Below, piece by piece: positions 13,032-53,686 of a DNA stretch of 64,000 bases. Source of the DNA: Thelephora terrestris (Eukaryota; Basidiomycota; Agaricomycetes; Thelephorales; Thelephoraceae); the NCBI GenBank assembly GCA_015956445.1, contig WIUZ02000011.1, positions 948,501-1,012,500 of the forward strand, written 5' to 3'. How positions within the stretch are numbered: position 1 is the first letter of the stretch; each line of letters begins with the position of its first letter. The position numbers were made by a program, and so were the translations under genes. Below the pieces are notes generated by a model. It was not told the origin of the DNA and did no database searches. It worked only from the letters and a program-made list of their open reading frames with translations.

Positions 13032-13419
13032 ACGTGGGTGGGGTTGAATAATAGATGTCTCTACTGAGTGAGCAGTCTTCAGTTATGGGTCTGTGGGCTT
13101 GTGGGTCCACTAACTTGTAGGTCCACCACAGTTGTTGTGCTTGGGTGACAGATGGATATAGGATTGGATGGTGCAGCTCACAGTGTGTTCCTGTAACCCA
13201 GTCATGTGCTGGTGAGCCAGGTGAGGTTGGGTTAGATGTTGGTTAGCTAGGGTATTTAGATTAAGGTTAGATAAGATGACAGCTGATTAGATAAGATCAG
13301 GTCAAGTTGCATCAGGCTAGGTCAGGTGGACCACTTTAGGTTAGGTTGAGTGATCTGTGGTGGACTGGGTTAAGTGGACTATGTCAGGTTAGGCTAGGCT
13401 GGATTAGGTTAGGTTTAGG

Positions 13420-13812
13420 GTGGGTGAGATAGGATAAGATAAGATAAGATAAGATAAGATAAGGCCAAACTAGGCCAGGTCAGGGTAGGACTAGGTGAGG
13501 TTAGACTTGGGTTAGTTTTAGGACAGGTTGGGTTTAGGTTTAGGTTTAGGTTATGTTGGGGTTAGGTTAGGTTTAGGGTTAGGTTTAGGTTTAGGGCAAG
13601 TTAGGTTTAGGGCAGTTAAGTTTAGGGCAGGTTAGGTTTAGGGCAGGTTAGGTTTAGGGCAGGTTAGGTTTAGGGCAGGTTAGGTTTAGCATTAGATTGA
13701 GGTTTAGGGTAGGTTTAGGCTTAGGGCAGGTTTAGGTTTAGGGTTAGGGACAGGTTTAGGGTTAGGTTAGGTTATGTCTAGCACTAGGTTTAGATTTAGG
13801 GTTAGTTTATGA
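13420..13812. repeat. Telomere-like TTAGGG/TTTAGGG array (right arm)
   Basis: Reverse complement of the left-arm array, with GGTTTAGGG-type units plus a (GATAA)n run at about 13436-13463. The order across the palindrome is CCCTAA then TTAGGG. That is the wrong order for a head-to-head telomere fusion. Confidence 0.8.
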
Positions 13813-14387
13813 CTACAAATAGATCTGAACTTTATGATATAATGAATATTTTAGATATAATTGTCATTTTTAATTTTCAATTACCTTTTTAGGATTTCTA
13901 TGCATTTTTTGGGCAGAAAATACATTAATATCAAAATTATAGGCTATTCAATGAACGAAAAAAATCGAAATAATTTTTATAAAATATTTATCTATATTCT
14001 GTATTTTTTTGGAAATTATTTCGGATTTTTTCCTGATTTTTCCAGCCAGAAAAACAATTTATTTGGATATTTGTAGGATTTATTTGCATTTTTTTGGCAC
14101 TTTCTAGGTCTGTGGGAATTTTTTCAGTATTTTTTAGGATTTTTCTGGTATTTTTCCGAATTTTCTAACATATAATTTCCTTTTTTTGGTAATTGTTTCC
14201 AGTACCATTTTTGAGTCGCTTATGTAAGCCATCAAAATTGTCTATTTTGGAATGTCTTTCCTAAAAAGGAAATTTCCTGTTTGGGAAATCTCATTGAGTT
14301 GCTTATGTAAGCAATCAAAATTTCCTAAAAAATTTTTTTTTTGGGAAAGAACCTTCTAAAAGCATTTTTGAGACACTTATGTAAGCC

Positions 14388-20825: not shown

Positions 20826-22334
20826 ATGGTGGCACCTCCCTTCTACATGCCTCTCTCGCACACTCGCGACGCTCCCAAGTTCCGAGAGGATGAGCGAGGC
20901 TTCAAGGCCTTCTTCAAGAACATCTCGGAGCTCGTGAAACGTGCGGGACTCACAGACGCTGATGCTATTGAGTGGGCGATCTCCTATGGCGGCGACGAGA
21001 GCGAAAACTGGGAGAATGTCGCTTGCATGGCTCCTGGTCGCATTCCCCCTCCTACCCTCGACAAATTTAGGGAGGAAGTACGTCTGCGGTACCCCCACCT
21101 ACTCAGCGATCATCGCTACAGCATCATGGACCTCCACAGACACATGGAGGCGACCCAGTGCTTCCGCACAATGTCTCAGGACGAAGTTGGCGCATACTAT
21201 CGGAAGTTCACCACGATCTCGGACTATCTTATCGCGCAGGATCGTCTCTCCACTCGCGAGCGGAACACCTTCTACCTAAAGGGTTTCCCGCAGTTTATCT
21301 GCACCTTGATGAAGCAGAGGCTCGTGATAAAGAAGCCTGATGTTTGTCCTGCAGATGGCTATAGCTTGGAGGACCTCCACAAGGCCGCTATCTTTGCTGT
21401 GGATTCCCGAGATCCCGACAGCGAGATAAAGGTCGAACCGGAGATCAAGGTTGAGAAGAATGGACAGATGGAGGAACTGCTGAAGATGGTGGGTACCCTT
21501 CTCACTCAGAATCAGCACAACTCAGCCCCTCCCGTCGCGACGCAGCAGTATCCCAGGACGGATGGTTACCCTACTCCGGGAGGAGTAGCACAAAACCCCC
21601 CCCAGTGGGAGCCCCAGCCTTGTTCTCAGAGCTACTGCATGTTCTGCAATGCTCCCAACCACTTCCTCTGTGTCTGTCCCATTGTTGGGCAGTACCTCCA
21701 GCAGGGAAAGATCATTAAGAACAGCGATAACAAGATTACTCTTCCCGATGGTCGATTCCTCCCTCGAACGGTTCCTGGCAATTGCATGCACGAACGTCTT
21801 GACAATTACGCCAACTGGAAACGTCGCAACCCCCAGAGGAACCAGTACGAGCCCGCCACGACCAACTTCTTCGAGAGCAATGACGAGTATGCCTTTGAGG
21901 TTGAGGTCTCCTCCTTCGAGCCTGACGATTCCGACGACGAGCTAAACATCGCGCACGCAAGATTCCAATCCCTCTACGAAGCTCGCAAGGCTCATCACGA
22001 ACAGTTCGATGGTGTTGAGGTCCCTCCCCGCAAGACTGGGTTCCCTTCCCGCCAGAAGGCCCCAGCTCCTCCTCCTGCTTCCTCTCCTGCTCCCGCTCTC
22101 CCTCAGCCGAATATCTACGGCCAGCGAGTTCCCCTAAAGCCATTCCCTCATCGGGATACCCTTCCTCACCTCGCTGGGAAGCCTGGAGCACCCGTAGATC
22201 CTCCCGCTCGTCCCCAAGGTCCTATGAAGCCTCTCAACATGCCCCCCAAGCCTTCTGCCAATGACTCGAAGCATCACTACCACTCTGCAATTGAGTCTTC
22301 TGTCAATGTCAACGACGTTGTCACGAACGCGTGA
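20826..22334 (+). pseudogene. Gag part of gypsy polyprotein, cut by B3
   Basis: The frame is open from upstream of the ATG at 20826 (good context, CCATGG) to a TGA at 22334 that belongs to inserted B3. It has a capsid-like helical region (FREDERGFKAFFKNISELV, YRKFTTISDYLIAQDR), then a CCHC zinc knuckle CMFCNAPNHFLCVC (C-x2-C-x4-H-x4-C, near 21638-21680), then a proline-rich stretch. In the empty state it continued in frame into 24596 (…VNDVIDRA), so Gag and Pol were one frame. No ATG lies further upstream in the same open frame, so I start at 20826. Confidence 0.85.
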
Positions 22335-22423
22335 CATAGTAACCAAGATCTCACAAATAATCAAAGACATTGGTCTTATTCAAACTAATAGAAGTACAAC
22401 GGGAACTCGTAACAGTCGCAAAT

Positions 22424-23327
22424 CTAAACCAAAACAAAAGGATCTACGTCGCAAGCACAGTCCTGAGCAAACGGACAACGATGAGCGAAATGGTGCGGAT
22501 TATGCACGCTCTGAGGACAGTACGAATACGCTCGCGTTACCGGATCCACCCAACACTCCCGACATCCCAACACATCATGATACAGACTATCATGCATCTC
22601 CCGCTTCACGTCCGACAAGGCTGCGCTCACTAATGCAAACCCATAACGGTCTTGGAGACCCGCCACCTCCACCTTCAACTTCATCCGAACCTGACGTGAC
22701 TTGTCGGAGGGACGACAACGTTGACCAGAACGAGTCATCGGACTCTTGCGGTTCTTCTTCTTCTGGGACCTCTCCACCATCTGGCGAACTGGGGCAGGAC
22801 TCCAGGGAGGGGATGGAGGGAGAGGAACGCCCTGATCCTGGTGGTGGCGAAGGGATGACTGGGGACTTGCAAGGGGGGTCGGTGCAATAAGCCCCGTGAC
22901 ATTGGTGTCCGAAATATCGGAAGAGAGATGCCTGGAAAGGTCCCCAATGTTCCAGAGCAAAGTGAGAGAAGTCATCATTCAAACTGTTCATGATGACGTA
23001 CATGCGATCCACGCGCTTCTCCAACTTCGCAATCCGATCCTCTCGTTCCCTCTCCATGGCGTCCAGCAAGAGGACGGCTCCAGGGTGTCTAGCCTCAACC
23101 TGAGGCCTAGCAAGCCGGGGATCTTCGTACCCAGCTTGTTCCCAGAATTCGGCAGGAGCATTGTGGGTGGTCAAGAAGTTCACGGCCACCTGATTGTCGT
23201 GAGCGATGTTGGCAGGGGTATCGTACAAGTGTTGCTCCACATCGTAGGGAGCATCCGTCTCAAAGGACGGAGTGAAGGGGACGGCGGCAGCGTTGAGAAC
23301 AACGTTGTAGGCGACGAAGGCAGACAT
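22424..23327 (-). CDS. Family-B antisense protein (B3), function unknown
   Basis: ATG at 23327 (MSAFVAYNVVLNAAA), 244 residues to a stop at 22590 if unspliced. A charged helical segment (MEREREDRIAKLEKRVDRMY) could be a short coiled coil. It is followed by an aromatic segment ending CHGAYC and a Pro/Ser/Glu-rich acidic region. A second frame covering 22424-22630 encodes GCRECWVDPV...HHFAHRCPFAQDCACDV and is kept open in B2, B3 and B4. A short intron probably replaces the ...REAGDA end with this Cys/His tail, which could bind zinc. Exact splice sites are uncertain, so the span given includes both ends. No family recognised. Confidence 0.6.
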
Positions 23328-23946
23328 AGTAGTAGCAGATGTTTTAGGAGGGAAGTAGTGGTTGATTGGTGGGAGTGGAAAAGAGGCGATGGAGGGAACA
23401 ATCATTAATCCCCCTGACTTAAATACATCCTGACTCAAAGGAAAACCGGAAAGGGAAAACAATAACCCATTATCCATTAAAGTCCGAATTAGGATAAACA
23501 AACCCTTAACCCCGATCGCGATCCCATCAAACCCAGAGAAATCCCCATCAATCATGGGAAATCCCCACCACGCTTCTATTGCTACCATTGATCCAGAGAA
23601 ATCCCCATCGATCATGGGAAATCCCCATCACGCTTCTATTGACCCGTGCCCCTATTGTTCCCGTATGAGTAATTACTATCTGTCGTTCTAAGTCCCCTCA
23701 TTCTGACTCATCTATCCTACCCTAAACTACGCACAGACCATGTTGATCCCTGTTTGACTCATTGTAGAATAATGACTCCTGTAGAGGATTGGGTATATAA
23801 GGAAGAGCGTTCGCTCCTTCTTTTCCCCATTCTCAATCTCTTCTGTACTCCTCTACCCATAACTTGAATAAACAAAGTAAGCTGAGAAATCCTTCTCACG
23901 TCTTGCTTCATCTGACTCATTCAAGCAGGAATTCTCCTGCTAGTGT

Positions 23947-24570
23947 ATGTTCAGTCCCCCAAACCCCTTTCCCTCTACCAGTCCAGTCCAACGACCAAGC
24001 GTTCCTGACGCCAGGAGATCTATCTGGGAGTATAAACTCATTAGAAGTCTCCAAGTAAACCGAACAGCCGGTTTACTCACCCACTTCCCTTACTACCGAC
24101 CCTTTGCAGCTCTCGACGCCAGAGTCACTACTCCTCCTTTTCTCTTAGGAGCAGATCATCAATTCCTCTGGAATTCAGATCTTACGGAGAGCGTCCTTGC
24201 GACCGTCTACTTCAGTATCAGTCCAGCCTTCTACTTTCCCTCCCCACGTATTCATCTTACTACTAACATCCACACCCACTCTCCTGCTATCATCATTCTC
24301 TGGTGGGAAGTCCCAACTGAATTACCTTATTCGGTCATAGAATATCTCGTCAACTTCGAACGCCTTAGCGACCAAGACTTCGAACCCTTTGTGCAGCAAC
24401 TCAATAAGTTCTGCCAAGACTACCACTCGCCCGTCCATCCATATCAGACAGAGTCACCTCTCTCTCTTGATATTCCTCCTCTCCTCGTCTCTACGCCCGG
24501 AACCCCCTTCAAAGTCAGACCCGACACCCCTCACCCATCTGCTAATCCTCTAGTGCCCCACAAACAGTAA
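23947..24570 (+). CDS. Family-B 207-aa sense protein (B3), function unknown
   Basis: Intact ORF of 207 codons starting MFSPPNPFPSTSPVQRP, about 150 bp downstream of the plus-strand TATA box and 20 bp from the element's right end. It differs from the B2 copy at scattered sites without gaps or stops. It also has the same basic start, FPYYRPF and VLATVYFSISPAFYF segments, and proline-rich tail. The two family-B genes diverge from a shared promoter region. Confidence 0.6.
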   Translation: MFSPPNPFPSTSPVQRPSVPDARRSIWEYKLIRSLQVNRTAGLLTHFPYYRPFAALDARVTTPPFLLGADHQFLWNSDLTESVLATVYFSISPAFYFPSPRIHLTTNIHTHSPAIIILWWEVPTELPYSVIEYLVNFERLSDQDFEPFVQQLNKFCQDYHSPVHPYQTESPLSLDIPPLLVSTPGTPFKVRPDTPHPSANPLVPHKQ

Positions 24571-24590
24571 GCAGGCCTACAACCCTGACA

Positions 24591-29648: not shown

Positions 29649-31018
29649 CACTGGGGGCAAGGGTTGGTTTACTGAGTCAGTAAACTGTGAGTAAATCACA
29701 AGCAAATGGAAAAAGAACCCAGCGAAATACTTGCCTGGCAAGCACAAAACAAATTCACAATTTACTGAGCCAATTCACCTGCAATTTACTGGGTTCAGTA
29801 TGTGCTCAGTATGTTTGCAGTTTACTGGGTCATGTGACTATGGTTTACCCATTAGGTAAACCTCAGAAAAATTCACAATTTACTGAATAAATTTACCAGC
29901 AATTTACTGGGCCACTTACCCAATCAGTATGTTTTTAATTTGCCGAGTGATTTAATCACGATTTACTGGACTCAGTAAACTGGAAAAAAACCAAACTGGT
30001 TTACTGACGACGTCCCTGATTGGTCAATTTGAAAAATATCCAAAAATTTACCTGGACGTGTCATTGTCAGTAAACTGCAAGTTTTCTTTCAGTAAATTGG
30101 AAATACACGTCAGGTAAACTGGGAAAACACGTGACAATTTGATTGTGGTTTACTGGGCTCAGTAAATCAGAAAAAAACCTAACCAGTTTACTGAGGAGGT
30201 ACCTGATTGGCTAATTTGAAGAAAAAACTCGAAAATTTACTAGGACGTGTCTTCATCAGTAAACTGCAAGTTTTCTTTCAGTAAATTGCAAATACACGTA
30301 AAGTAAACCAGAAAACACGTAAACTTTGAATTTACTTACAGTTTACACGTGTTTTCTGGTTTACTTTACGTGTATTTGCAATTTACTGAAAGAAAACTTG
30401 CAGTTTACTGATGAAGACACGTCCTAGTAAATTTTCGAGTTTTTTCTTCAAATTAGCCAATCAGGTACCTCCTCAGTAAACTGGTTAGGTTTTTTTCTGA
30501 TTTACTGAGCCCAGTAAACCACAATCAAATTGTCACATGTTTTCCCAGTTTACCTGACGTGTATTTCCAATTTACTGAAAGAAAACTTGCAGTTTACTGA
30601 CAATGACACGTCCAGGTAAATTTTTGGATATTTTTCAAATTGACCAATCAGGGACGTCGTCAGTAAACCAGTTTGGTTTTTTTCCAGTTTACTGAGTCCA
30701 GTAAATCGTGATTAAATCACTCGGCAAATTAAAAACATACTGATTGGGTAAGTGGCCCAGTAAATTGCTGGTAAATTTATTCAGTAAATTGTGAATTTTT
30801 CTGAGGTTTACCTAATGGGTAAACCATAGTCACATGACCCAGTAAACTGCAAACATACTGAGCACATACTGAACCCAGTAAATTGCAGGTGAATTGGCTC
30901 AGTAAATTGTGAATTTGTTTTGTGCTTGCCAGGCAAGTATTTCGCTGGGTTCTTTTTCCATTTGCTTGTGATTTACTCACAGTTTACTGACTCAGTAAAC
31001 CAACCCCTGTCCCCAGTG
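29649..31018. mobile_element. M5: long palindromic CACTG element, TSD TGA
   Basis: 1,370 bp, ends CACTGGGGGCAAGGG and CCCCTGTCCCCAGTG, TSD TGA (29646-29648 and 31019-31021). Arms of about 680 bp are near-perfect inverted copies centred near 30334, rich in TTTACTG/CAGTAAA repeats. The two identical 67-aa ORFs (29687-29890 and 30777-30980) are mirror images and not genes. Confidence 0.93.
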
Positions 31019-31021
31019 TGA

Positions 31022-31444
31022 AGACATGCGTCAGAGGGTTGCGAAGTCTCGTCGGAAGAATCTGGAGCAGTTCGAACTGCGCCATGGTTCCCGCATTGTT
31101 GATTTTGACTTCGAGTCCGGAGCTTTGGTTCTGGTGCGCAACACTCGCGTTGAGGAGTCCTTGAACAGGAAGACCAAGCCTCACTACCTCAGTCCAATGG
31201 TTGTTGTGCGCAAGACAAAGGGGACATCATATATCGTGGCCGAACTCAATGGAGCACAGTCTCAGCTTCGCGTCGCAGGCTTCCGACTCATTCCCTACTT
31301 CCCACGCACAGCTACCGATATCCTGCTGGTCTCTGATCTGGACGATGATGAGGACTTCACTTGGGATGATCCCGAGGATGTCCGCTACCTTTCTTCCCTT
31401 CCCGACGACCATTCCTATGTTTCCCTATCCCCTCCTTCCCTTTA
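31022..31444 (+). pseudogene. Gypsy Pol C-terminus (integrase tail)
   Basis: Joins in frame to ...RPKDLE across M5. It contains the GPY/F-like integrase C-terminal module (RNTRVEE..., KPHYLSPMVVVRKTKGTSY) and ends in an acidic tail with a stop at 31442-31444. 31445-31501 and 32304-32471 are the 3' untranslated part, with a purine tract AAGGAGA just before the LTR. Confidence 0.8.
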
Positions 31445-35764: not shown

Positions 35765-38700
35765 ATGACTTAGCGAGACTGGGTAGTTCAATGCGTGGGA
35801 GTAAAGGACAAAGGGCCTTACTAGTGTGTGAAGGAAAGCATAAAAGAACAATAGTCCACATGAAACATAGGGGGAAAGATAACACTAGGCCTAAAAGAAA
35901 AAAGGGACATATGGTCATTAAAGTTCATACCTGGGAACACACCCAAGGGTCAGGTGAGCAATCTCCTTGACATGCCTTTGCCAGCTGGATTCGGTAGTAG
36001 AGCTCTACACAACCCTTGTTGTCGGTAGGTGGTGACAGCATCATGGATTAGTGGCAACCTCAACATATGTCCAAACATGAGGAGGTAGGCCTAGACTCAT
36101 GGAACATGAGGGACTACATGCTTTGCTGGCATTTCACACTAACGGCTACTTCCACATTTGCTTGGCTAACCAAAAGGGTCCTAGAGGCAATCCTTTTGAG
36201 TAACAGTGATTCTTTTCTTTGGTTAGGAAGACTTTGATGTGATGTTCCACATGTGTGATCAGGGTCCAGGGTTTATCATTATCGTGATGTCATAAATGAG
36301 TCATCAGGGTCGTAAAAGGGGGGCATCAAGGTCATGAGACCTATATTTAGTGCACGTGCATTTGAGGTGTTCTGGAACGAAGTTCTTCCAAGGCCGTCCA
36401 ATGGGCCGAGATGTCAGCTTGATGTAGTAAGCCAATGATGATGGTACAATGGCAGAAGTTGATGTGACCTGGACCAATGAGGTGCGTCGAGGTAGGTCAC
36501 GTGAAGGAACACCACTCTAGGCTATAAGAAGGACGTCTTCTTGGAGCCATCCTTGATCAGCAACACCAGCAACTTCCCATCATCATACCATGATGTCTCT
36601 TACCACAACCACACCTACCAAGTTCCTCAGGGGATCGCCACTATCTCCCGTACCGACTGTTGTGCCTTCAAGGCCAAGGAGTACGCTTGCAAAGAGGGTA
36701 GCCTCTACATTTTGGATGACAATGTAGACCATCTTTTGACAGTTTTGTTTGTGAAAAGACAGGTCTAATGCCTTCCTAGATCCTTGCAGCCATAAAGAAG
36801 GTGGATATTGAACGCTTTAGGGAAACTATCCCACATCTTCCATTCTTGACCTGGGATGATGAGCTCTGGTTCAGTATCATGGTCGCCGAGAAGGTGATGC
36901 ACCAGATGAGGGGTCTTTTTGGGGAACTGGGGCATCCTGTCAAGAAGGAGTTGTGGTACACCCTGATGCGAGGGATTCACAATCAAGATCAGTTGGAACA
37001 TGGGGCTACCGTTCCTCAGGCTATCCGCCATGCCACCACGTCCACCACCCTGCTCTGGTCTCTGGTTCGAGAAGGGGACAGCAAGGTGGGTTGCCTTGGT
37101 GTTTAGAGTATGACTCTCTTAAACCAAGACTCCTTTAGGTCAAACATTTGGAATGTGAGGTGAAGGAAGTGAAGACAGAGGCGCTTTGTATTTCCGAGGA
37201 GTGTGCTAAAATGAAGGACACTGGGGGCAAGGGGTGGTGTTCCGGTCCAGAACATTGCAAGTTCATTGCAAGGAAATGGACGATGTACCTGGCAAAAACC
37301 CACCCAGTACATCACAAACTCATTCTGAATTTTCCAGGCTAATTTCTTGCAGTGTTCTGGAACAGAAGATGGTCAGTACATTCACAGTGTTCCAGTGATG
37401 TCCCCATTAGGTAATCCATCGGTACATTCAGAATTTTCCCAAAGAATGTAACCTCGATGTTGCTGATCAGCGCATTTACAATGTTCCTGGTCACACTGGG
37501 GACAAGGGGTCAAATACCCAGTGGGTACATGCTGAAGACATTGTGATCACTTGTTGACTGTGATCACAATGTGCGCAGTGGGGGAAATTTGAATACACTC
37601 AAAATGTGCCTGGCCATGTGAATCCAATGTGCCCAGTGGGCACATTTTGATTGCAATCGCAATGTACACATCAATGTGATCTCAATGTGGCTGCTGTGCA
37701 CATTTTAATTTCTTTCACAATGTTCCCATCAATGTGTTCCAAATGTACCCAGCTCATTACATAATAGTTTCTTTCACAATGTTGTCCACAATGTGCCCAG
37801 CATGTGGCTGAGCCACTCATTCAAAATTCTTCCAAATATTATCCAGTGATGTGTCCATAATGTCCCCAGGGGGTTCTTTTTGAAGTAATCACAGTTGAAT
37901 CTCAATATCGTTCAATTTCATCATGAACATTCAAAGAAATCACTATGTGTATTGTCAGGGCCACTCTTTGCCCTTCAGGTACCAGTGCTGTTGGTGAGTC
38001 GCAACTCCAACCAACAAGAAACAATGGGGCAAAGGGGGAACGACTTCCCTATATCCACCCAAAGTCTTCGTGGTCCAAAACGCGATGGACGAGCGTTCTC
38101 CGGTAGGTTGTCCGAATTCACAGCAGGAGTGCCGAGCCTCTATCCGATAAATCCCTATCTTCTTCTGAGGACAGATATAAGAGCCCGAGGATGGCGCCTC
38201 AAACTGTTGCTTGATCAAGAGAGCGGCGAGGAACTCCTTTTCGTAAGCGCGTTCGCCGATTCTTGACACAAGGCTGAGAGAGAGAGGAGACACTGGGGGC
38301 AAGGGCACCTGGAATCGGTGATTACATCTTGATTACATGGTGAGTTCATGTGCACTTTTCAATGATTGTAATCGCCGATTCCAGGTTGATTACATTTCAA
38401 ATGTTACCTTGACATGTAATCCAGCCAATGTCCACCAATTACATTTGCAATGTTCTCTACAAATGTTTCTGGGATGTTTTTTACCTGTTGGCAAAAATGG
38501 TACTGCAATGTAGTCAACATGGTCTTCAATCGTCCGAGATGTAATCTAAATGTGCTCAAAAACATGAGATGTTTTCACAATGTGCCCAGTGGGTGTCAGG
38601 AACATGGTATTTTTAAACTTTTTATAACACGCTCTTTCTTCGAACTCTTCTTATCACTTCTTATGTTTTGAATGCTTCACACTCCTTATCCTTCACACCA

Positions 38701-38777
38701 ATCATTCAAAAACACACACGCGCGTACTATTCCCAGCGAATCCACAACGAGCTATACAAAGTGCTATCATCGTCCCA

Positions 38778-41020
38778 TCAGAAATCAACTCTATCTACGG
38801 CAGGCCTAAAGGTCATCAACTGTCCATCCCGGAGATCGTAGTGCTGGCCCCTCCTCGCTAGGACCTCCCCAAACTTGGCGTCACCGTCTTCGGCACTCAG
38901 CTGAACGACCAGTTCAAGCCGATAGGAAGAGATGCCTTCGAGCGGACCGATCAGCCTCCCAGATGTCACCGAACTGCTGAACACCTGGTCCCACATCTCC
39001 ATCACCGGGTGACTGCTCGACAGCACTATCAACGTAGTCGGCGAGCGACCCTCCGTCTCCCTCATTGGACCCCTGGGTGGGATCCTGCCTTGCGAGGCGA
39101 AGCTGGTGTCGGAGTTGGATCTCGGACTCGACCTGTCGGTAAGGACAGTGGACCCAATATCGGAACCCTCGCTCCTCACCTCGACCAGATTGGTCACCAT
39201 CCGACTCAACTGGTCGAGGGTAAGGATTAGCCGACGCGGTCATACAATGAGCAGGACGGCGTCGAGAGCGTTTGCATCGTTGCCCCTTAGTCACCGGACG
39301 TACCTCGGTGACCCTCGGAGCATCTTCGGCTCGGTCAACTTCCATGACCTCATCATCGATCTTCACCAACTGATGGATCGGCTGCAAGACGCAACGCCCA
39401 CAGTTTTCCTTGTCGGAAGCGGCCAAAGTCGAAACCGGACCTGGAGTTGGCACGGGAACCGCGTTCTCGATCGAAGGCGTCACGTAGGACGACGGGGTAG
39501 GCGATGGGAGTACCACCTCGTCGGCGTACTCCAACTCGAATGGAACATCGGCTGTCCCCTGACCAACCAATTTGGGACCCTCCTGACAGTTGCAGGTCTT
39601 GTCCTGCAAGGACTCAACCTGCGCCGTCAGCACCGCCACCACGTTCTCGAGTTCTTCCGTCTAGAAGAAGTCTTTCAGTTATTGCACAAACTGCAAAGGC
39701 TGAAAGACGACCTTTTCGTCTCTCCTGGCCAACGCCCCTTTAATGTTGTTGTCCCTAACCTTCAACCCGGCGATCAACTCCTGATGGTTGGCGACCATTG
39801 CCTCCAACGCCTCATTCGTCCCTTGTTGGAAGGCTGCTAAGGTCTCCTTCATCTGAAGACCCTCCGCTGACAAACGAAGGACGTCTGCCTTCGCTTCTTT
39901 CACTTCACGCTCCAATCGTTCAACCTAGGCAGTCTGATTAGTCGAGAGTCATACTCGAATATTCAGACAGAAAACACTGGGGGCAAGGGCACCTGGAATC
40001 AGTGATTACATCTTGATTACATGGTGAGTTCATGTGCACTTTTCAGTGGTTGTAATCGCCAATTCCAGGTTGATTACATTTCAAATGTTACCTTGACATG
40101 TAATCCAGCCAATGTCCACCAATTACATTTGAAATGTTCTCTACAAATGTTTCTGGGATGTTTTTTACCTGTTGGCAAAAATGATACTGCAATGTAGTCA
40201 GCATGTTCTTCAATTGTCCAAGATGTAATCTAAATGCGCTCAAAAACATGAGATGTTTTCACAATGTGCCCAGTGGGCACATTCAGGAAACATTGCTTGG
40301 CAACATTTTGAGGAAATTCCAGATGGAGTTGATGGGCACAGTTGAATTACATGTCAAGGTAACATTTGAAATGTAATCAACCTGGAATCGGCGATTACAA
40401 TCATTGAAAAGTGCACATGAACTCACCATGTAATCAAGATGTAATCACCGATTCCAGGTGCCCCTGCCCCCAGTGAAACCTACCCGGCTTTCTCCTTCCC
40501 GAACGAGCGACCACAATAGACTAGTGGAAGCGGTGGCATGGCGGACAGCCCGAGGAACGGTTGCTCCGTGCTCCAATAGGGTCCTGATCGTAGATTCCCC
40601 TCTGCAGGGTGTACCAGAGCTCCTTCTTGATCGGATGCTCCAGCTCTCCGAACCTACCCCTCATCTGGAAGGCCACCTTCTCCGCAATTATCGTACGGAC
40701 CCAGAGCTCGTCGTCCCAGGTTAACCCCATCAAATGAGGGATTGTCTCCCTGAAACGTTTGGTGTCCACTTCTGTGATGACCTCCAAGATCTAGAAGCCG
40801 TTAGTTTGACATCAACGCCAAAAGAACGTTCCTCTACCTAGAGGAAGGCGTTAGTGCAAACATACTAAGCTCTAGGTCTCCCCCATACCTGGTCATCCGT
40901 GGTATAGGGAGTCCCAGCCGCACAGGCGTAGGTCTTGCGAGCGGCGGCACGACGGTCGATGCGAGAGATGGTGGAGATGCCGTTGGCAACTTTGTAAGTG
41001 TGGTTGTTGGGGAAGGACAT
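38778..41020 (-). pseudogene. Antisense A-type gene with frameshift and intronic M14
   Basis: Five-exon copy. Exon 1 is 41020-40889 (44 codons, MSFPNNHTYKV), exon 2 is 40790-40484, and later exons end at a stop at 38778. Exon 2 is 307 bp instead of 306: one extra G near 40578 shifts the frame (...YDQDPIGARS). M14 lies in intron 2, immediately beside the 5' splice site. Exons 3-5 stay close to the intact copy at 43735-45475. Confidence 0.75.
39975..40475. mobile_element. M14: palindromic CACTG element, TSD AAA, innermost layer
   Basis: 501 bp, ends CACTGGGGGCAAGGGC and GCCCCTGCCCCCAGTG, TSD AAA (39972-39974 and 40476-40478). Inserted in intron 2 of the antisense gene. The empty site is in the sister copy near 44930. 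Confidence 0.93.
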
Positions 41021-43734
41021 GTTGTGGTAAGATGATGGGGAAGTTGCTGGTGTTGCTGATCAAGGATGGCTCCAAGAAGACGTCCTTCTTATAGCCTAGA
41101 TTGGTGATCCTTCACGTGACCTACCTCGACGAACCTCATTGGTCCGGGTCACATCAACTTCCACCCCTGTACCATCATTGTCGGCTTACTACATCAAGCT
41201 GACACCTCGGCCCGCGGGACGGCCTTGGAAGAACTTCGTTCCGGAACGCCTAGAACACGCGCGCACTAAAAATAGGTCTCAAGACCCTGATGACCCCTTT
41301 ATGACATCACGAACCCCTTTTTACGACCCCTCATGACTTTACGATTACGAACAACCCTGAACCCTGGAACACACACGTGGGCACGGGGTATCAACATTTG
41401 GACACTGTGCTTCTAATCGGATAGTAACCCTATCTGATCTAGTTGTGCTTTGGAAGCAGAGTAGGCCCGAGCCGAGAACGGCGGCCGAAGAATATAATCC
41501 CTGGTGCCACTTAGGAAGAACAATATTCCCGGGTGCTATGCCTAATCAAGACTGGGTCTGATCAAGCGATTACGGTTGCAACTCCCAGGTTACTGCCTGT
41601 CCGTTGGTATCATACCACCTACCTACAACAAGGGATGTGTAGAGTTCCTTCGATCTCTAGCCAATCACAGAAGCTCAGAGACGGTGCTCACCTGACCCTT
41701 GGGTGTGGTCTAGATTCAGGTACGAACTTTCATGACCCATGCCCCTATTTCTTTTAGGACTAGTGTTATCTTTACCCCTATGTTTCATGCGGACATTCCT
41801 TATCTTTTATGTAATCCTTCACACGCTAGTAAGGCCCTTTGTCCTTTATCTTCCCACGCGTCACATTTGTTCGCTTCCCTTACTTGGCGTTCTCACACTC
41901 CTTATCTCCCTTTGTTCTGGACTTGATAAGGGTATATTAGGGTATTGACGTCATGGCCACTCATTTAGTATAAGTAGCAACTGTGGCTGTATCGTAGTAC
42001 CTTAGTTTTGTTACCTCAGGAAATCCTCTGCCCTTCTCAGCCCAGTTGCAGTTAAGGACAAGTCAGAGTTTCTTGTTTGATCCAAGACATCCCCCATCTG
42101 CTCTCCCTCCCGCTCTGCGCATCAACTGCGCCTCGTAACTATAGACTCCCAGCAGTCATATTAGAATACCTCGAGCGTCCAGTCGATCAACTGGTGGAGT
42201 CATCAATCCTGCTGTAGGGATCAACCCTTGCTTGTTAAACCGAACGAAGTACAGTTTAGGTTGGGTTTCTCTTTAGGATTTCGACCTGACTTGTAGTGAC
42301 CTCGGACAACCTACCGGAAGAATAGAGACGTGATCGTTCTCTCACAAGCTAGTTGGACTAGTGAGTACTCTGCGGAGTCGGCTCAGTGCACTGGTAGTTG
42401 TTAGGGTAGAGTGGCCCTGACAGTGGGCACATTCAGGAAACATTGCTTGGGAACATTTTGAGGAAATTTCAAATGGAGTTGGTGGGCACAGTTGAATTAC
42501 ATGTCAAGGTAACATTTGAAATGTAATCAACCTGGAATCGGCGATTACAATTATTGAAAAGTGCACATGAACTCACCATGTAATCAGGATGTAATCACCG
42601 ATTCCAGGTGCCCCTGCCCCCAGTGGGAGGAGGTTGTCCGCGAGACGTCTGAGGAGACAGCGGTTAACCCGGTTAGCAGTTCTCCCGAGTTGGAGTACGC
42701 CGGGGAGAACGAAGTGGCCGTTCCAGTTCCGCCTCCGTCGATCTCTCCGGTACGTAGACAGCGTTCCATTTGTGCCTGTCGATGGGTTCCTTACAACGGC
42801 GCACGTCGTCCAGCCCATCGTATGTGCCCCAGCAATCCCAACGTCGTCCGACAGGGTGGAGACATCGCGTCCACCGTCTTATTCCGACGCGACGATGTTA
42901 CAGTGTCGCCTGGATCGTGGCGACACTGGGGGCAGACCCCTACTTACCCGGCAGGCAAATTGAGGGTTTTTTGAGAGTTTTTCAACATTTTACTCACATT
43001 TTACCCAGTGGGTTAATTGTGAACAAATTCAAAACTTACCCACCACTTTGCCCACACTTTGATCAGTGGGTAAGTTTTGAATTTGTTCTGAACAAGTTCA
43101 TCAGTTAGCCCATGAGGTACTTCTTTGACAAACCCCAAGGGTTCTTTCACAAATCACACCAAATGTGCCCACCACATGCTCTGAGCCACTCATCAAGAGT
43201 TCTTTCAAAACTTGCTCACAACATACTCAGTAACATATTCACCAGGTTTTCTTTGATGTAATCACAACAAACTCTTGATATGCTCAGTTTCTTGACAAAC
43301 CCTCAACAATCCCACTGTGTACATGATTGAACATGTTGTGGGCGAATTTCTGGGTAATTTGTGAAAGAACTCTTAGAGTTTTGTCAAAGAAGTACCTCAT
43401 GGGCAAACTGATGAGCTTGTTGAGAACAATTTCAAAACTTACCCACCAATCAAAGTGTGGGCAAAGTGGTGGGTAAGTTTTGAATTTATTCACAATTAAC
43501 CCACTGGGTAAAATCTGAGTAAATTGTTGAAAAACTCTCAAAAAACCCTGTCAGGAACATGGTATTTTTAAAACTTTTTATAACACGCTCTTTCTTTGAA
43601 CTCTTCTTACCATTTCTTATGTTTGAATGTTTCACATTCCTTATCCTTCATACCAATCATTCAAAACACACCAACGCGCATACATTCACGGCAATACGGA
43701 ACAACATGGCTATACTAATGCTTATACAACGTCC

Positions 43735-45475
43735 TCAAAAGTCGACGCTATCTACGGCAGGCCTAAAAGTCATCAACTGTCCATCCCGGAGATCGTAGTG
43801 TTGGCCCCTCCTCGCTAGGACCTCCCCGAACATGGCGTCACCGTCTTCGGCACTCAGCTGAACGACCAGTTCAAGCCGATAGGAAGAGATGCCTTCGAGC
43901 GGACCGATCAGCCTCCCAGATGTCACCGAACTGCTGAACACCTGATCCCACATCTCCATCACCGGGTGACTGCTCGACAGCACTATCAACGTAGTCGGCG
44001 AGCAACCCTCCATCTCCCTCATCGGACCCCTGGGTGGGATCCTGCCTTGCGAGGCGAAGCTGGTGTCGGAGTTGGATCTCAGACTCGACCTGTCGGTAAG
44101 GACGGTGGACCCGATATCGGAATCCTCGCTCCTCACCTCGACCAGAGAGGTCACCATCCGACTCAACTGGTCGAGGGTAAGGATTAGCCGACGCGGTCAT
44201 ACGATGAGCAGGATGGCGTCGAGAGTGTTTGCAACGTTGCCCCTTAGTCACCGGACGTACCTCAGCGACCCTCGGAGCATCTTCAGCTCGGTCAACCACC
44301 ATGACCTCATCCTCGATCTTCACCAACTGATGGACCAGCTGCAGGACGCAGCACCCACAGTTCTCTTTGTCGGATGCAGCCAACGTGGAAGCCAGACCTG
44401 GAGTTGGCACGGGAACCGTGTTCTCGATTGGAGGCGTCGCATAGGACGACGGGTTAGGCGAAGGAAGTACCACCTCGTCGGCGTACTCCAGCTTGAACGG
44501 AACATCGGCTGTCCCCTCACCAACCAATTTGGGACCCTCCTTACAGTTACAGGTCTTGTCCTGCAAGGACTCGACCTGTGCTGTTAATACGGCCACTATG
44601 TTCTCAAGCTCTTCCGTCTAGAAGAAGTGTCAGCTTCCCTCATTTCGTCTTCGAGATGAGGAAAGCTACCTTTTCATCCCTCCTGACCAATGCCCCCTTG
44701 ATGTTGTTATCCCGAACTTTCAACCCGGCAATCAACTCCTGATGGTTGGCGACCATTGCCTCCAACGCCTCGTTCGTTCCCTGTTGGAAGGCTGCCAAGG
44801 TCTCCTTCATCTGAAGACCCTCCGCTGACAAACGAAGGACGTCTGCCTTCGCCTCTTCCACCTCACGCTCCAATCGTTCAACCTAGGCAGTCGGATTAGT
44901 CGAGAGTCATACTCGAATATTCAGACAGAAAACCTACCCGGCTTTCTCCTTCCCGAACGAGTGACCACAAGAGACTAGTGGAAGCGGTGGCGTGGCGGAC
45001 GGCCTGAGGAACAGTAGCTCCGTGCTCCAATAGGTCCTGATCGTAGATTCCCCTCTGTAGAGTGTACCAGAGCTCCTTCTTGATCGGATGCTCTAACTCT
45101 CCGAACCTACCCCTCATCTGGAAGGCCACCTTCTCGGCGATTATCGTACGGACCCAGAGTTCATCGTCCCAGGTCAATCCCTTCAAGTGAGGAATCGTCT
45201 CCCTGAGACGTTCGGCGTCCACCTCCGTGATGACCTCCAAGATCTAGAAGCCGTTAGCTGGACATCAACGCCCAAAAGAACGTAACCTCTACCTAGAGGA
45301 AGGCGTTAGTGCTAGCACACAAAGCTCTAGGTCTCCCCCATACCTGATCATCCGTGGTATAGGGAGTCCCCGCCGCACAGGCGTAGGTCTTACGAGCAGC
45401 GGCACGACGGTCAATACGGGAGATGGTGGAGATGCCGTTGGCGACTTTGAAGGTATGGTTGTTGGGGAAGGACAT
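43735..45475 (-). CDS. Intact 5-exon A-type protein, 479 aa, function unknown
   Basis: Exons (minus): 45475-45344, 45243-44938, 44882-44670, 44617-44261, 44166-43735. That is 44, 102, 71, 119 and 144 codons (last includes the stop). Every intron is GT..AG, phase 0 and 52-100 bp. Exon 1 is basic (MSFPNNHTFKVANG). Exon 2 is helical with TWDDELWVRTIIAEKV. Exon 3 is a charged coiled coil (LEREVEEAKADVLRLSAEG). Exon 4 has a Cys pair CNC, LVKIEDEVMVVD and a KENCGCC cluster. Exon 5 is Ser/Arg-rich then acidic. No enzyme motif, transmembrane segment or signal peptide is visible. It lies entirely in what would be U3 of an LTR and is transcribed away from the element's own promoter. Confidence 0.8.
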
Positions 45476-46376
45476 GTTTTGGTAAGATGATGGGGAAGTT
45501 GCTGGTGTTGCTGATCAAGGATGGCTCCAAGAAGACGTCCTTCTTATAGCCTAGATTGGTGATCCTTCATGTGACCTACCTCGACGAACCTCATTGGTCC
45601 GGGTCACATCAACTTCCGCCCCTGTACCATCATTGTCGGCTTACTACATCAAGCTGACACCTCGGCCCGCGGGACGGCCTTGGAAGAACTTCGTTCCGGA
45701 ACACCTAGAACACGCGCGCACTAAAAATAGGTCTCAAGACCCTGATGACCCCTTTATGACATCACGAACCCCCTTTTACGACCCCTCATGACTTTACGAT
45801 TACGATCAACCCTGGACCCTGATCGCACACGTGGACAGTCACATCACAGTCTCCTAACCGGAGGAAGGAATCGCCATTATTCGGAAGGAGTGCCTTAGAC
45901 TCCTTTTGTTTAGCTCAGCGAATGTGGAGTAGCCGTTAGCGTGAAACGCCGGCGAATCTGTAATCCCTCATGTCCCATGAGTCTAGGCCCGACCTCCTCA
46001 TGTTCGGACGTACGTTGAGGTTGCCACTAGTCCGTGATGCTGTTACCGCCTACAGACAACAAGGGATGTTTGCATGGCTCTACTCCTGAATCCGCTGGTA
46101 TAACTATGTAAAGGGAGATTGCCACCTGACCCTTGGGTGTGATCCCCAGGTACGAACTTTCATGACCCCATGCCCCTTTTTCTTTTAGGACTAGTGTTAT
46201 CTTTACCCCTATGTTTCATGCGGACATTCCTTATCTTTTATGCAATCCTTCACACGCTAGTAAGGCCCTTTGTCTTTTATTCTCCCACGCGTCACCTTTG
46301 TTCGCTTCCCTTACTTAGCGTTCTCACACTCCTTATCTCCTTTTGTTCTGGACTTGATAAGGGTATATTAGGGTAT

Positions 46377-46408
46377 TGACGTCATGGCCACTCCTTTAGT
46401 ATAAGTAG
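46377..46408 (+). promoter_or_regulatory. CRE-like site and TATA box of A-type promoter
   Basis: TGACGTCA (46377-46384) lies about 15 bp before TATAAGTAG (from 46400). The same pair is kept in the A-type copies near 34835, 41947 and 50293. TGACGTCA is the consensus for bZIP (CREB/ATF-type) factors. It points along the plus strand, opposite to the gene in the element. Confidence 0.65.
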
Positions 46409-48751
46409 TAACTGTGGCTGTATCGTAGTACCTTAGTTTTGTTACCTCAGGAAATCCTCTGCCCTTCTCAGCCCAGTTGCAGTTAAGGCCAAGTCAGAGT
46501 TTCTTGTTTGATCCAAGACATCCCATCTGCTCTCCCTCCCGCTCTGCGCGTCAACTGCGCCTCGTAACTATAGAACCCCAGCGTTCACATATTAGAACAC
46601 CTCGAGCGTCCAGTCGATCAACTGGTGGAGTCATCAATCCTGTTGTAGGGATAAACCCTTGCGTGTTAAACCGAACGAAGTACGGTTTAGGTTGGGTTTC
46701 CCTTTAGGATTTCGACCTGACTTGCAGTGACCTCGGACAACCTACCGGAAGAATAGAGACGTGATCGTTCTCTCACAAGCTAGTTGGACTAGCAAGTACT
46801 CTGCGGAGTCGGCTCAGTGCACTGGTAGTTGTTGGGGTAGAGTGGCCCTGACAAACCCTCAATTTGCCTGCCGGGTAAGTAGGGGTCTGCCCCCAGTGCG
46901 AGCTGATCCCAGTGGAGTCCGTCGACATGAACGGATTAACCAACCTTACGCTCTTGTCAGTCCAGCGTGCAGCGGAGGCCGTTCGCCTGGTGGCTCAACT
47001 GACCGAGAGAGTGGAGGGTTGGTCAGCCCAGAGGACTCTGGATCAGACTACGGTCGATTCAGCGAGGAACTGCCTTCGCGCCGAGGTTCAGCTGGCCGTC
47101 GCTCATCGTCTGGAGGAAGCTCGGGTCGTCGAGATGGTCAACGAGGAAGTCGATGAGAGTGCCTCGGAGGGGACGGAGGAGGAGGTTGCCAGTGCTGAGA
47201 AGTACTGGCAGACCAGGTCTTGACGTCTAGGGTCTGTACGCCTTAGTCCTCGTCCATAGAGTCCGTGCGGGTTCAACTCCGTCGGCTGATCGTCTTGTGG
47301 GTGCCCTTGTAATATCATCAGTGTCTTTGTCTGGTTTCCGATGACGTGTGAGTTGTGATAAGGGAAAGCGATAAGATAAGAAAGGGGTATAGGTAAGGAA
47401 AGTGGGCGAAAGTTGGGTGTAAAAAATAGTTCAAAAAGAAGTTGAAATTCAGCACGCTGACATGTATGACTGTACACATCCTAGATGCATCACTGGATGC
47501 TTTGTGAAAGAATTTTGAATGAGTGGCTCAGCCACATGCTGGGCACATTGTGGACAACATTGTGAAAGAAACTATTATGTAATGAGCTGGGTACATTTGG
47601 AACACATTGATGGGAACATTGTGAAAGAAATTAAAATGTGCACAGCAGCCACATTGAGATCACATTGATGTGTACATTGCGATTGCAATCAAAATGTGCC
47701 CACTGGGCACATTGGATTCACATGGCCAGGCACATTTTGAGTGTATTCAAATTTCCCCCACTGCGCACATTGTGATCACAGTCAACAAGTGATCACAATG
47801 TCTTCAGCATGTACCCACTGGGTATTTGACCCCTTGTCCCCAGTGTGACCAGGAACATTGTAAATGCGCTGATCAGCAACATCGAGGTTACATTCTTTGG
47901 GAAAATTCTGAATGTACCGATGGATTACCTAATGGGGACATCACTGGAACACTGTGAATGTACTGACCATCTTCTGTTCCAGAACACTGCAAGGAAATTG
48001 GCCTGGAAAATTCAGAATGTGTTTGTGATGTACTGGGTGGGTTTTTGCCAGGTACATTTTCCGTTTCCTTGCAATTAACTTGCAATGTTCTGGACCAGAA
48101 CACCACCCCTTGCCCCCAGTGGGAGACTCTGGCTAAGTTCCAGGCAAAAATGAACAAGGCATTGGAGGCGATGATTACCAACCATTGTGAGCTGATTGCA
48201 GGGCTGGGTCTTAGGGACGATAACGTGAAGAAAGCCTTTGACAGACGGGACAATCGATTGGATTGGCACTTGAAGAAAATTTGGGATGAGAGCAGCCGGG
48301 TAAGCGGCTTTCATTATTTCAATTGTGGAATGATAAAAGCTGACTTTCCCTAGGTCAACGAACTCGAGGATAAGGTTTCTGTGCTGACCATGATGGTCGA
48401 GTCCCTTCAGGACAAGATGTGTCGCTGCGATGAGTTGCCACAATTGGTGGGCCAAGGTTCAGCCGAAGTTCCTTTCGAGTTGGAGTACGCCAATGAGGTG
48501 ATACTTCCGTCGCCTAATCCGTTGTCCTATGCCACACCTCCCGTGGAGAACGAGGCTCCCATTGCCACTCCTGCTCTGACTTCCGCTCTGGCCAAGTCCG
48601 ACAAGGAGAACTGTGGTCGTTGCCCGTTGCTCCCAATTGATCAGTTGGTAATCAAGGTACATTTGGTCACTACTGGTCAGTGTTGTAAACCCTCCCGGTA
48701 TTGCCGAAGTCATTGCATGGAACTCTCGAATCCTTACCCCCTTCCAGTTGA

Positions 48752-51268: not shown

Positions 51269-53686
51269 TGTGATGATTTCACCGTTTACCCCCTTTCATT
51301 TCCTTTATTTAACGCCTCATCACCACTAAGTCAGTTGGTGCCCTGCCCTAAACACAGCGGTAAACTGTTTATTATGCAGTATGCCCTATGCTAAACAACT
51401 CAAAGTCCAATACGTGGAACGTGCTACTAGTCAAGATACCCCAGAAGACCCGAGGTATAATACGTGAACATGTACCGGCGGACCTTCATACAAAGATCCC
51501 CCCTACCTGGCCCTCCGTTGCCCCTGGACGATTAGTAGATATTCAGGCTACCGACAACAAGGGATGTATTAATAAGCGTCGCGCGCTGACCTCTCGCAGA
51601 AGTCAACCGGCTTATTAATCTGACCCTTGGATTGGACTTATGAAAACCATTATGCTTTACGATTCATGGATCACACGCAATAGACAAGATAGGAGATAAA
51701 TTCCTTGGAAGCCAAATAGTACAAAAGAGTTATTTAATCAATATCTCTGCGAATCCTTTGTACTACTTCCAAGGCCGATCTCACCAACTCCTCGTTCAAC
51801 CAGTTCTGCTCCCGGATCTCGTTCGGGTCCACGTCCGACAAGTCATCGTAATCTGGAAGCTCCGTATCAGAGTTTGGTTCACTATCGGGAACGAACTCGG
51901 CGTACGGATCATACTCCAGAGCAGGCCATTGACGGCGACTACCCCAAGGAGTAGAAACGAACTCAGGACGAGGAGTGTCCCTACGGACGACTCCTACGTT
52001 CTGATAGAATTCGTCGCTCCCGATCTCAATGACCTCATCGTCGATGGGAACCAACCTGTTTTCGTGACGAACTAACAAACGAGCAGGCGGCGACTCAGCC
52101 CGGTTAGGGATGATCGGCGACCCGGCCCGATGCAGAACCTCTTCCTCTTCTTCTTCAACTCGGACCTCCGGCTCGTTGCACCTCCTCTGGAGATCCCGGA
52201 CTTCTCCGGTCAACTCGGAGACACGACGAGTAAGGCAAACCTAAAGGAATAGGGTTAGAAGATGACAATTATCTTCGATCCCAGTCCCAGTACCTTATCG
52301 TCTTCCAATTCTCCGGTCTTCGCAACGAGACTCCGGACCAGGTCCTTCAATGTGATCACCTCTCCCTAAAGGAAATGCTGGATTAGAGATGTCCAATATC
52401 TCCCGACCCCACATTTACCTTCAACCTGTCGATCGCCATACCATGCTGCTCCTGCTCATCTTCAATCTTCAAGATGCCCTCATGACATCCGAGGAACTCC
52501 TTCTCCAGCTTCTCGATCTCTTCGCGACGACCATCAACTCGCTCATTGACATGAGCAATCTCATCCATCAACATAGACCCAACGTTACCCGTATGGATAA
52601 CGCTGGCCTCCAACACGGAGTTGAAGGTCTCGTTGGTCTCGGTGACAAACTCGACACCCCTGTTGAGGAGTTCGGTCGCATAGGGGTTCGTCTCGATACG
52701 CGCCAACTTGCGCCGAGACACCCTACGAGAAGCCTGGATAAAATCCCTAAAGCCTAAAGCGGAACATCAGTAGACAAGCCAAATATGTCAACCGACATCC
52801 CGAACCTAAGTTGGTGAAACCCTTATTAGGATCGGTGGTGGCGGTACGGTCCATGACGTTTCCCAAAGTGGGATAAGGGCGAGAAGCATCACGACGAGCG
52901 TGAGAGAAGCGGTCGATATTGAAGTTGTTCTCCTGAACAGGAGAGTAGGAGGAAGAACGACGAGTGGGAACACGAGTAGAGGCACGAGGCATGTTGGCTA
53001 TGTGTAACAAAGGTGGGTTTGTTGAGAGACCCAGTCATCCAACCCCCTTTGGTTATATACCAAATGCCACGCCCCTTCCACGACTCAGGAGTTGAGTCAT
53101 CATTTCTATTGTTTACTGCGCATGACCCACATGACATCATATGCCCCCATCCTTAGTCATATGCTCCCCTTTTGCCATTGGCTGTTAGTCAGTCATACCC
53201 ACATTCCTTCCGAACATTCCCAGGCTACGTCATGCTTTGTAACTGCTTTGTAATGCTCTCAAATTGCTATTGGCCGCCACACTTTTGTTTATCAGCTGAT
53301 AATTTGTAGCATTAGTCACCACGTAACGCACAGACCATGCAGTGCTGTGCACGGACCATGTTTGTCTGTGTTTGTATTTTTAGGGTAGTTACATGTCACT
53401 GTCACGTCACAAATCTAAGTAGTATATATACTCAGAGTAGTTTAGCCTGTACTCCTTAGATTTGTTATCATCAGACTCTCTGTGACCTCTACTGCTGTGT
53501 GCTTAGAGCAAGAGTGTTTGAAGACCCTTGTCTCCTTCTTTCTCCTCTTCTCCAATCTAGTCTGTGAAGAGATTTCCGATATCCCTGGGTTTGCAACGGG
53601 GTTATAACTGTGTGTTTGACCCCTGTGTGTGATAGGTTTGGATAGCAAGAGTGCTATTGAACTGTAGAGGTCGCGTCGGCCTGACA
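51269..53686 (+). mobile_element. C: family-C gene-bearing LTR-like element, TSD CCTTG
   Basis: Starts TGTGATGATTTCACC and ends GTCGGCCTGACA, with a perfect 5-bp TSD CCTTG (51264-51268 and 53687-53691). 2,418 bp. The plus strand has ACGCACAGACCATG (53327-53340), shared with family B, and TATATATA (53423-53430). The minus strand carries an intact 4-exon gene. Outside TG..CA, its left end does not match the TGTCAGG of family A; this argues against simple TIRs. Confidence 0.9.
51734..52992 (-). CDS. Family-C 4-exon protein, 366 aa, function unknown
   Basis: Exons (minus): 52992-52806, 52753-52419, 52365-52294, 52240-51734. The joined frame is open for 366 residues. Introns are about 52-53 bp, GT..AG. 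Start MPRASTRVPTRRSSSY is basic. Exon 2 holds a helical/coiled region (ERVDGRREEIEKLEKEFLG). Exon 3 is a 24-residue heptad-like link. Exon 4 has a Glu run, then LVPIDDEVIEIGSDEF, which resembles LVKIEDEVMVVDRAED in the A-type protein, then an acidic tail. A remote family-A homologue is likely; the function is unknown. Confidence 0.75.

Follow-up and report, generated by a model that had tools for sequence, protein, structure and literature searches.

What are the gene-bearing units with TG..CA ends that lie in a 64,000-nucleotide stretch of DNA from the basidiomycete Thelephora terrestris, order Thelephorales (hereafter the window; C3:948501-1012500 of a 40.6-Mb, 60-contig assembly, in which C followed by a number denotes a contig), and why does each appear to carry a spliced gene? 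A sequence-only reading had suggested that they were either unusually long solo long terminal repeats (LTRs) coding for proteins in U3 or DNA transposons of no recognised superfamily. We consider it very probable that a single explanation covers them all, namely that they are solo LTRs of Ty3-type retrotransposons carrying a multi-intron antisense accessory gene. The units were named as families C (the 43549 and 38594 units), D (37953), B (51269) and B3 (22319), and each is bordered by a 5-bp target-site duplication (TSD):

43549..46853, plus strand: solo LTR of family C (a Ty3 chromovirus), 3305 bp, TSD AACCC, with direct-repeat counterparts on contigs C56 and C11
38594..42422, plus strand: second family C solo LTR, TSD GTGGG, with an insert of about 502 bp at 39974-40475
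37953..47462, minus strand: family D solo LTR (a second Ty3 element, whose sense strand is the minus strand), TSD TGTAT
51269..53686, plus strand: family B unit, an LTR by analogy, TSD CCTTG
22319..24590, plus strand: family B3 unit with two genes, an LTR by analogy, TSD GACGT

The TG..CA ends and exact TSDs were found again on re-reading for 5/5 window units. Four of the units had been described as complete single units; their ends and duplications are real, but two of them are nested in a third, since the D unit (37953-47462) is interrupted by both family C units (38594-42422 and 43549-46853) and by shorter repeats, and 38594-42422 is itself a copy of the 43549 family. Among the distinct units for which both flanks were known, 25/26 had their own exact 5-bp duplication, against 2/650 matches when flanks were paired across different units. 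One further site (L060/L061) was excluded from this count, as its flanks equal those of L058/L059. Only C56:1443253-1445673 lacks its own TSD; it is bordered by a 22319-type fragment at one end and by sequence like the D LTR at the other, so that it is probably rearranged. The families are true repeats: right termini with no more than three mismatches numbered 217 for the 51269 type, 317 for the 22319 type and 412 for the 43549 type (reversed-pattern control: 0 matches), and the right-end motif CTGACA is common to all families.

None of the units has a partner repeat inside the window, as had been noted, but this does not extend to the rest of the genome, where C and D sequences flank or adjoin a Ty3 coding region. 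A genome search for direct repeats flanking gag-pol found them for family C, and D was linked to its coding region by pol and leader junctions. Among the 40 candidates scored, from 637 obtained at first look, 20 places cover C-unit positions 1-3305, and C sequence stands in direct repeat, 9.3 kb apart, at C56:2015667-2028263 and C11:96422-109036, the latter around the L011 gag-pol. The interior between the C11 LTR pair (about 6 kb) contains an open 681-aa gag frame bearing a CCHC knuckle, the gag-domain match of which is under the Pfam cut-off, and a 1322-aa pol frame in which protease, reverse transcriptase (RT), RNase H, integrase and chromodomain are present. The C element is a chromovirus, with the chromodomain at the C-terminus of the C-type pol (PF00385, 60.3 bits against a cut-off of 25.1). 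The C56 provirus, the one looked at in this respect, has outer flanks CTGCC/CTGCC and two LTRs identical over 3300/3300 bp, so that this insertion is young, and its pol has one TGA. The purine-rich tract AGGAAGAGGATAA lies immediately 5' of the 3' LTR start TGTCAGG in 8/8 C copies. A protein search yielded 8 C-type pol copies (98-100%) and 3 others at 61-62% (D-type); with 412 C right termini against 8 C-type pol copies, solo LTRs dominate. Spacings of about 5.2 kb between C units on contigs C4 and C5 had raised the idea of a non-autonomous element with a 1.9-kb interior; it was rejected for the C4 pair, because the two units there have separate TSDs (GAGTA and GTCCC) and are thus independent solo LTRs. 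Same-strand C pol copies or LTRs were also observed at steps of 9.3 to 10.4 kb at C23:1034786-1048058 and C11:85972-109036; the two pol copies and LTR parts of C23 are identical, and the arrangement would be either a tandem provirus array or an assembly duplicate.

The D element is a second Ty3 element, with a pol 61-62% identical to the C-type pol. The end corresponding to 47462 stands directly after pol in 3/3 copies (L029-L031), and in the one copy looked at, on contig C12, the 37953 end is followed by a C-like leader. The two LTR ends known from that copy, of 1477 and 639 bp, do not overlap at E 1e-5, and its LTR is probably at least 2.1 kb long. The C and D units are thus LTRs of Ty3-type retrotransposons. 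Further D-LTR pieces are present in the window at 2761-3391 and 4977-6075.

The antisense gene of family C is predicted to comprise the following parts, the last line being the non-coding right part of the LTR:

45344..45475, minus strand: exon 1 (ATG at 45475), MSFPNNHTFK...TTDDQ, ratio of nonsynonymous to synonymous substitution (dN/dS) 0.085, intact in 8/8
45287..45292, minus strand: probable micro-exon of 6 nt (VE), flanked on both sides by a short intron that has a branch site of the CTAAC type
44938..45243, minus strand: exon 2, dN/dS 0.071, followed by an intron with the same borders (GTAGGT and CTGCCTAG) in 8/8
44670..44882, minus strand: exon 3, a coiled coil by an unscored look at the heptads, dN/dS 0.018, resembling the D antisense frame
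43994..44617, minus strand: exon 4, with a CxC motif and a proline/acidic tail, dN/dS 0.112
43735..43929, minus strand: last exon, in a shifted frame and with an approximate splice border, mean dS 0.179, dN 0.022, intact in 8/8
45524..46853, plus strand: non-coding right part of the C LTR (presumed promoters and end), no codon pattern

The splice borders (GT..AG) and branch sites (CTAAC/CTAAT) of this gene are conserved: both borders of intron 2 and the GT of the first intron are kept in 8/8 copies, and the GT after the micro-exon is lost in 1/8. The annotated proteins P0017, P0019, P0029 and P0064 have VE followed by exon 2, and models P0010, P0023 and P0025 differ there; the C-terminus encoded by the last exon is identical in models P0017, P0019, P0021, P0023, P0025 and P0029. 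Judged by eye, the protein begins with a short N-terminal segment, followed by a helical one, by a coiled-coil-like one containing the CxC motif and by an acidic, proline-rich tail. In the frame-shift zones of C (43914-43974) and B3 (22731-22851), there is little synonymous change and the reading is open in both frames, and these zones could correspond to overlapping coding or alternative splicing.

The existence of antisense genes in all families, as had been proposed, was confirmed by codon-phased substitutions. Aligned copies of C (8, including the LTR pair of the C56 provirus), B (4) and B3 (4) were analysed by the Nei-Gojobori method (28 pairs for C and 6 pairs each for B and B3). Substitutions fall at third codon positions of defined antisense frames, and the frame switches at the intron positions. 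The dN/dS of the antisense genes ranges from 0 to 0.11 by exon, against 1.35 to 5.1 in the remaining two antisense frames (the C controls include a mis-framed last segment). Stops and frame-changing indels were absent from every tested segment in 16/16 copies (8 C, 4 B and 4 B3), an estimate of intactness that is biased upward because the best-scoring copies were chosen. The mirror frames, which have third positions in common with the coding frames, also have low dN/dS values (C sense 0.194, B sense 0.069, antisense mirror of the B3 sense gene 0.133), but they contain 495 (C), 84 (B) and 101 (B3 sense gene) stop cells, against 0 in the chosen frames, and this allowed the coding strand to be assigned.

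The C gene was compared with pol from late exon 2 to exon 4. Over the same 28 pairs of 8 proviruses, mean dS was 0.175 for pol and 0.213 for the LTR gene, the dN ceiling in provirus pairs was 0.009 and 0.018, respectively, and the pair L026/L027 was identical; exons 3-4 were intact in 8/8 provirus LTRs (one LTR per provirus). The D antisense frame has a codon-phase pattern like that of C (3 copies), and the two proteins match at 34% over 97 aa in the region of C exon 3 (E 4e-11 in a three-sequence comparison); they match again at the CxC motif and, weakly, in the tail. Coiled coils may inflate these scores, and the shared exon order is a better argument that the C and D antisense proteins, as judged from their sequences, look homologous. 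Their likeness parallels the relationship between the C and D pol proteins. Since dS tracks that of pol and the likeness and exon order are shared between C and D, the C LTR gene has most likely been passed on together with the element, under a constraint close in strength to that on pol. The mean pairwise difference between C copies is 2.3% over 1330 sites in the right non-coding part, 8.6% at the left end, 3.6%, 8% and 15% in the introns, and about 20% at synonymous sites. The low divergence of the right part reflects either strong constraint or homogenisation by inter-element recombination; nearest neighbours vary between C regions, which fits recombination.

Public relatives of the antisense proteins are spliced hypothetical proteins, falling into 70 clusters with 256 member sequences among 8000 scored candidates, and all 70 clusters are named T. 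terrestris. The closest relatives of the unit proteins (best 90-94% over the matched part) are likewise named Thelephora terrestris. The public gene models do not agree on the middle and end of the gene, and some of them are fusions; the disagreement may come from alternative splicing, overlapping frames or incorrect models. No clear likeness was detected between the C, B and B3 antisense proteins, the best matches being short (E 6e-4 to 0.01).

We propose that the great length of the LTRs, 3.3 kb in C and at least 2.1 kb in D, is due to this multi-intron accessory gene, which is housed in them and is presumably served by a separate promoter in the conserved non-coding LTR sequence. A TATA promoter had been attributed to each unit; TATAWA boxes are indeed present in B and B3 (on both strands), but a single one was seen in C, close to the left end and on the minus strand. 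The element would be copied through a sense-strand genomic RNA, in which the antisense introns would go unrecognised and be copied intact, and in which the sense genes (gag, pol and the 207-aa gene of B3 described below) would have to be single open frames. The sense genes are open and the C and B antisense genes are spliced, as an RNA intermediate demands. Recombination between LTRs would then remove gag-pol and leave a solo LTR with its 5-bp duplication. As the antisense gene is complete within one LTR, it would outlast this recombination, and both proviruses and the solo LTRs, which number in the hundreds, could act as sources of the protein in trans. The putative LTR protein would most likely be an oligomeric accessory regulator of the expression or silencing of the element itself.

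Families B and B3 have genes of a similar kind, with one addition:

51736..52992, minus strand: family B antisense gene, about 4 exons, ATG near 52992, TATAWA box near 53059
22427..23327, minus strand: family B3 antisense gene, ATG at 23327, frame change between about 22741 and 22690
23947..24570, plus strand: B3 sense gene, 207 aa, a single open frame at unit positions 1629-2252

The B antisense gene has dN/dS values of 0.074, 0 and 0.055 for three segments (0.044 together), conserved branch and acceptor sites, and is intact in 4/4 copies; that of B3 has values of 0.099 in its first part and 0.083 in its second, and is also intact in 4/4. Only an antisense gene had been reported for the 22319-24590 unit. 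That gene is real, but the sense gene had been missed; the sense gene has a dN/dS of 0.063 and 0 stop cells, and its ATG and stop are kept in 4/4 copies. Relatives of the sense protein are the T. terrestris records P0001 and P0080 and JGI/ENA records, four of them being full length at 72-86% identity and another matching at 50% along 59% of the query. Searches of Pfam and PDB gave no significant relative of this protein. A UBC/UEV fold, an idea that came from the order of a helix, four strands and two helices in a poor model (predicted local distance difference test score, pLDDT, 36.6), was rejected: the hhalign score was 13.5 against a mean of 12.9 for column-shuffled alignments, 16/60 shuffles reach it, and Pfam gave no match to a UBC family at E values as high as 10.

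Proviruses of B and B3 were sought among 100 listed termini of the 217 (B) and of the 317 (B3), as same-strand pairs within 20 kb enclosing any of 144 integrase places, 99 RVT_2 places or the Ty3 RT places. There were 12 same-strand against 22 opposite-strand pairs for B and 14 against 19 for B3, and the exact spacing recurs in no pair. The only pol sequences inside B/B3 pairs were a C-type provirus (B3 pair, contig C11) and an opposite-strand integrase (B pair, contig C4). In the matching test on 100 listed C termini, 34 pairs were obtained, 5 of which enclose same-strand pol: these comprise 2 C proviruses, 1 broader pair that contains one of the two, and 2 pairs around copia-type elements. 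The C rate thus predicts about 2 proviruses per 100 termini, and the absence of B/B3 proviruses is weak evidence. Two B3 pairs with near-equal spacing (13,618 and 13,672) were considered as proviruses and rejected, as their right flanks agree at only 7/32 positions and they share no leader. By analogy with C and D, the B and B3 units may be LTRs with proviruses that are rare or lost; the LTR interpretation of the sequence-only reading therefore holds for C and D, applies to B and B3 by analogy only, and its placement of the genes in U3 would be an inferred one.

Several observations weigh against this explanation. None of the 12 and 14 same-strand B and B3 pairs encloses an RT or integrase of its own, and 13 further B/B3 right flanks have no leader in common. 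A sense gene within the B3 unit is unusual for an LTR, and the P0001 and P0009 gene models join an upstream exon to it, which contradicts an intron-free sense gene unless they are mispredicted. A leader is common to the C and D elements beside the LTR, where a primer-binding site had been sought, but the leaders (GAGTAACAAAACTACCAGCC in C, ATATATCAAAGATACCAGCC in D) do not begin with the TGG of a site for a tRNA 3' end, and no such site was found beside the C 5' LTR. This weakens the priming model and leaves the direct-repeat evidence unaffected; priming modes other than tRNA exist among Ty3 elements. Self-priming on the model of Tf1, by pairing of CTGGTAGTT/AACTACCAG (C) and CTGGTA/TACCAG (D) near the LTR end and in the leader, was no better than in shuffled sequences (z -0.91 and -0.53) and remains a lead. 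The antisense transcript from the LTR is a prediction from DNA alone, searches of Pfam and PDB yielded no significant relatives of the antisense proteins, so that no known domain backs the regulator role, and motif arrays of the VANC type (see below) were not detected in the non-coding parts of C and B, where the top k-mers are reached by 70-200 of 200 shuffles.

As regards the function of the protein, a more specific alternative, which we regard as rather unlikely, is that it is an anti-silencing factor of the VANC kind that targets the conserved non-coding sequence of the LTR encoding it. In the literature on VANC, as far as it was available to us, this protein of the VANDAL DNA transposons of Arabidopsis acts on the element's own non-coding DNA, which carries motif arrays (PMC5735166). 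The small difference between C copies in the right part (2.3%, against about 20% at synonymous sites) and the retention of the gene in solo LTRs would fit such a role, but in C and B there is no repeated short motif above shuffles, and repeats are present only in B3, the top k-mers of which are reached by only 1-3 of 200 shuffles. The likeness is a functional analogy only, since, as far as that source goes, VANC belongs to a DNA transposon with motif arrays.

An alternative for the units themselves, which we judge to be improbable, is that B and B3, and perhaps many C solo units, are single-unit mobile elements with TG..CA ends that use a Ty3 integrase in trans. The B and B3 termini without a provirus among the 100 listed for each, the excess of C-type termini over C-type pol copies, the two selected genes of B3 and the right-end motif shared by every family are consistent with this possibility. 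However, C and D are proviral LTRs, so few proviruses are expected per 100 termini that their absence from B and B3 says little, and solo units with TSDs are accounted for by recombination. We know of no route to an LTR-only complementary DNA. A slightly less probable version still is that B/B3 (perhaps also many C) are LTR-only units with one or two selected genes that never had an internal gag-pol, the C/D proviruses being a special case with gag-pol placed between two units of this sort. The view of the units as DNA transposons of an unknown superfamily, the second option of the sequence-only reading, is refuted for C and D by their association with Ty3 gag-pol, and is very unlikely overall: the short matching ends (3-7 bp), the single units and the lack of an enzyme inside would suit it, but the direct pairs, purine tract and common leader do not, and nor does the finding that selected sense genes are open and antisense genes spliced, as an RNA intermediate requires. 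Chance open reading frames or decaying captured fragments of host genes, for which the lack of significant Pfam or PDB relatives might speak, can practically be dismissed given the dN/dS contrast between frames, the absence of stop cells, the 16/16 intact copies and the coupled evolution with pol.

Other repeats occur among and beside these solo LTRs. Short, miniature inverted-repeat transposable element (MITE)-like repeats with CACTGGGGGCAAGGG ends are found at 39974-40475 and nine more window places (10 copies), one of 502 bp being inside the 38594 unit. A further MITE-like insert in the D unit, at 42963-43549 beside the 43549 unit, has 170-nt inverted arms that are 95% complementary. Long inverted repeats lie at 10508-14387 and 29643-31024, with arms of 1225 nt (100%) and 678 nt (99%).

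Antisense accessory genes are themselves already known from retrotransposons. In plant Ty3 elements (Grande gene23, RIRE2 and Retand TRP28 open reading frames), the accounts available to us in part describe a conserved antisense accessory gene between pol and the 3' LTR, with a possibly nuclear regulatory role (PMC7264820, PMC11963269), which the portion of a review consulted calls unknown (PMC7264820). The Thelephora gene differs from these cases, as far as the sources go, in that it lies wholly inside the LTR, so that each provirus has two copies of it and solo LTRs retain it.

Zhao et al. reportedly described, in 2011, a Boty-like retrotransposon of Botrytis with an antisense gene, brtn. 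The part of the source available to us shows an internal gag-pol with brtn-106 and a solo LTR with a 5-bp TSD (PMC4227169). The likeness extends, within that part, to a fungal host, gag, RT, integrase, chromodomain, an antisense gene and a solo LTR with a 5-bp TSD; the same part mentions neither a spliced gene within the LTR nor an estimate of constraint (PMC4227169).

In vertebrate retroviruses, the sag gene of mouse mammary tumour virus (MMTV) encodes a protein within a long LTR (U3), but on the sense strand, as an unspliced frame and in the 3' LTR, and HBZ of human T-cell leukaemia virus type 1 (HTLV-1) is coded mostly outside the LTR. HBZ and a claimed LTR antisense gene of human immunodeficiency virus type 1 (HIV-1) are, in the parts of the reports available, antisense genes under an LTR promoter (PMC10186651, PMC1654176), and they differ from the Thelephora gene in belonging to vertebrate retroviruses. 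A spliced antisense gene wholly inside a retrotransposon LTR was not found in the openly licensed literature searched, as far as the partly available sources go, and what appears to be new here, judging from the sequences, is therefore the location of a spliced, selected antisense gene wholly within the LTR. The practical consequence is a warning for annotation, as at least 70 clusters of T. terrestris 'hypothetical proteins' (256 members) correspond to LTR genes or fusions. More generally, LTRs are usually seen as regulatory ends and solo LTRs as dead remnants, whereas here the LTR carries a selected gene that recombination leaves in place, so that several hundred copies are potential sources of an element-encoded protein. 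Because its constraint can be measured against that of pol, this gene offers a clean case for the role of antisense accessory genes.

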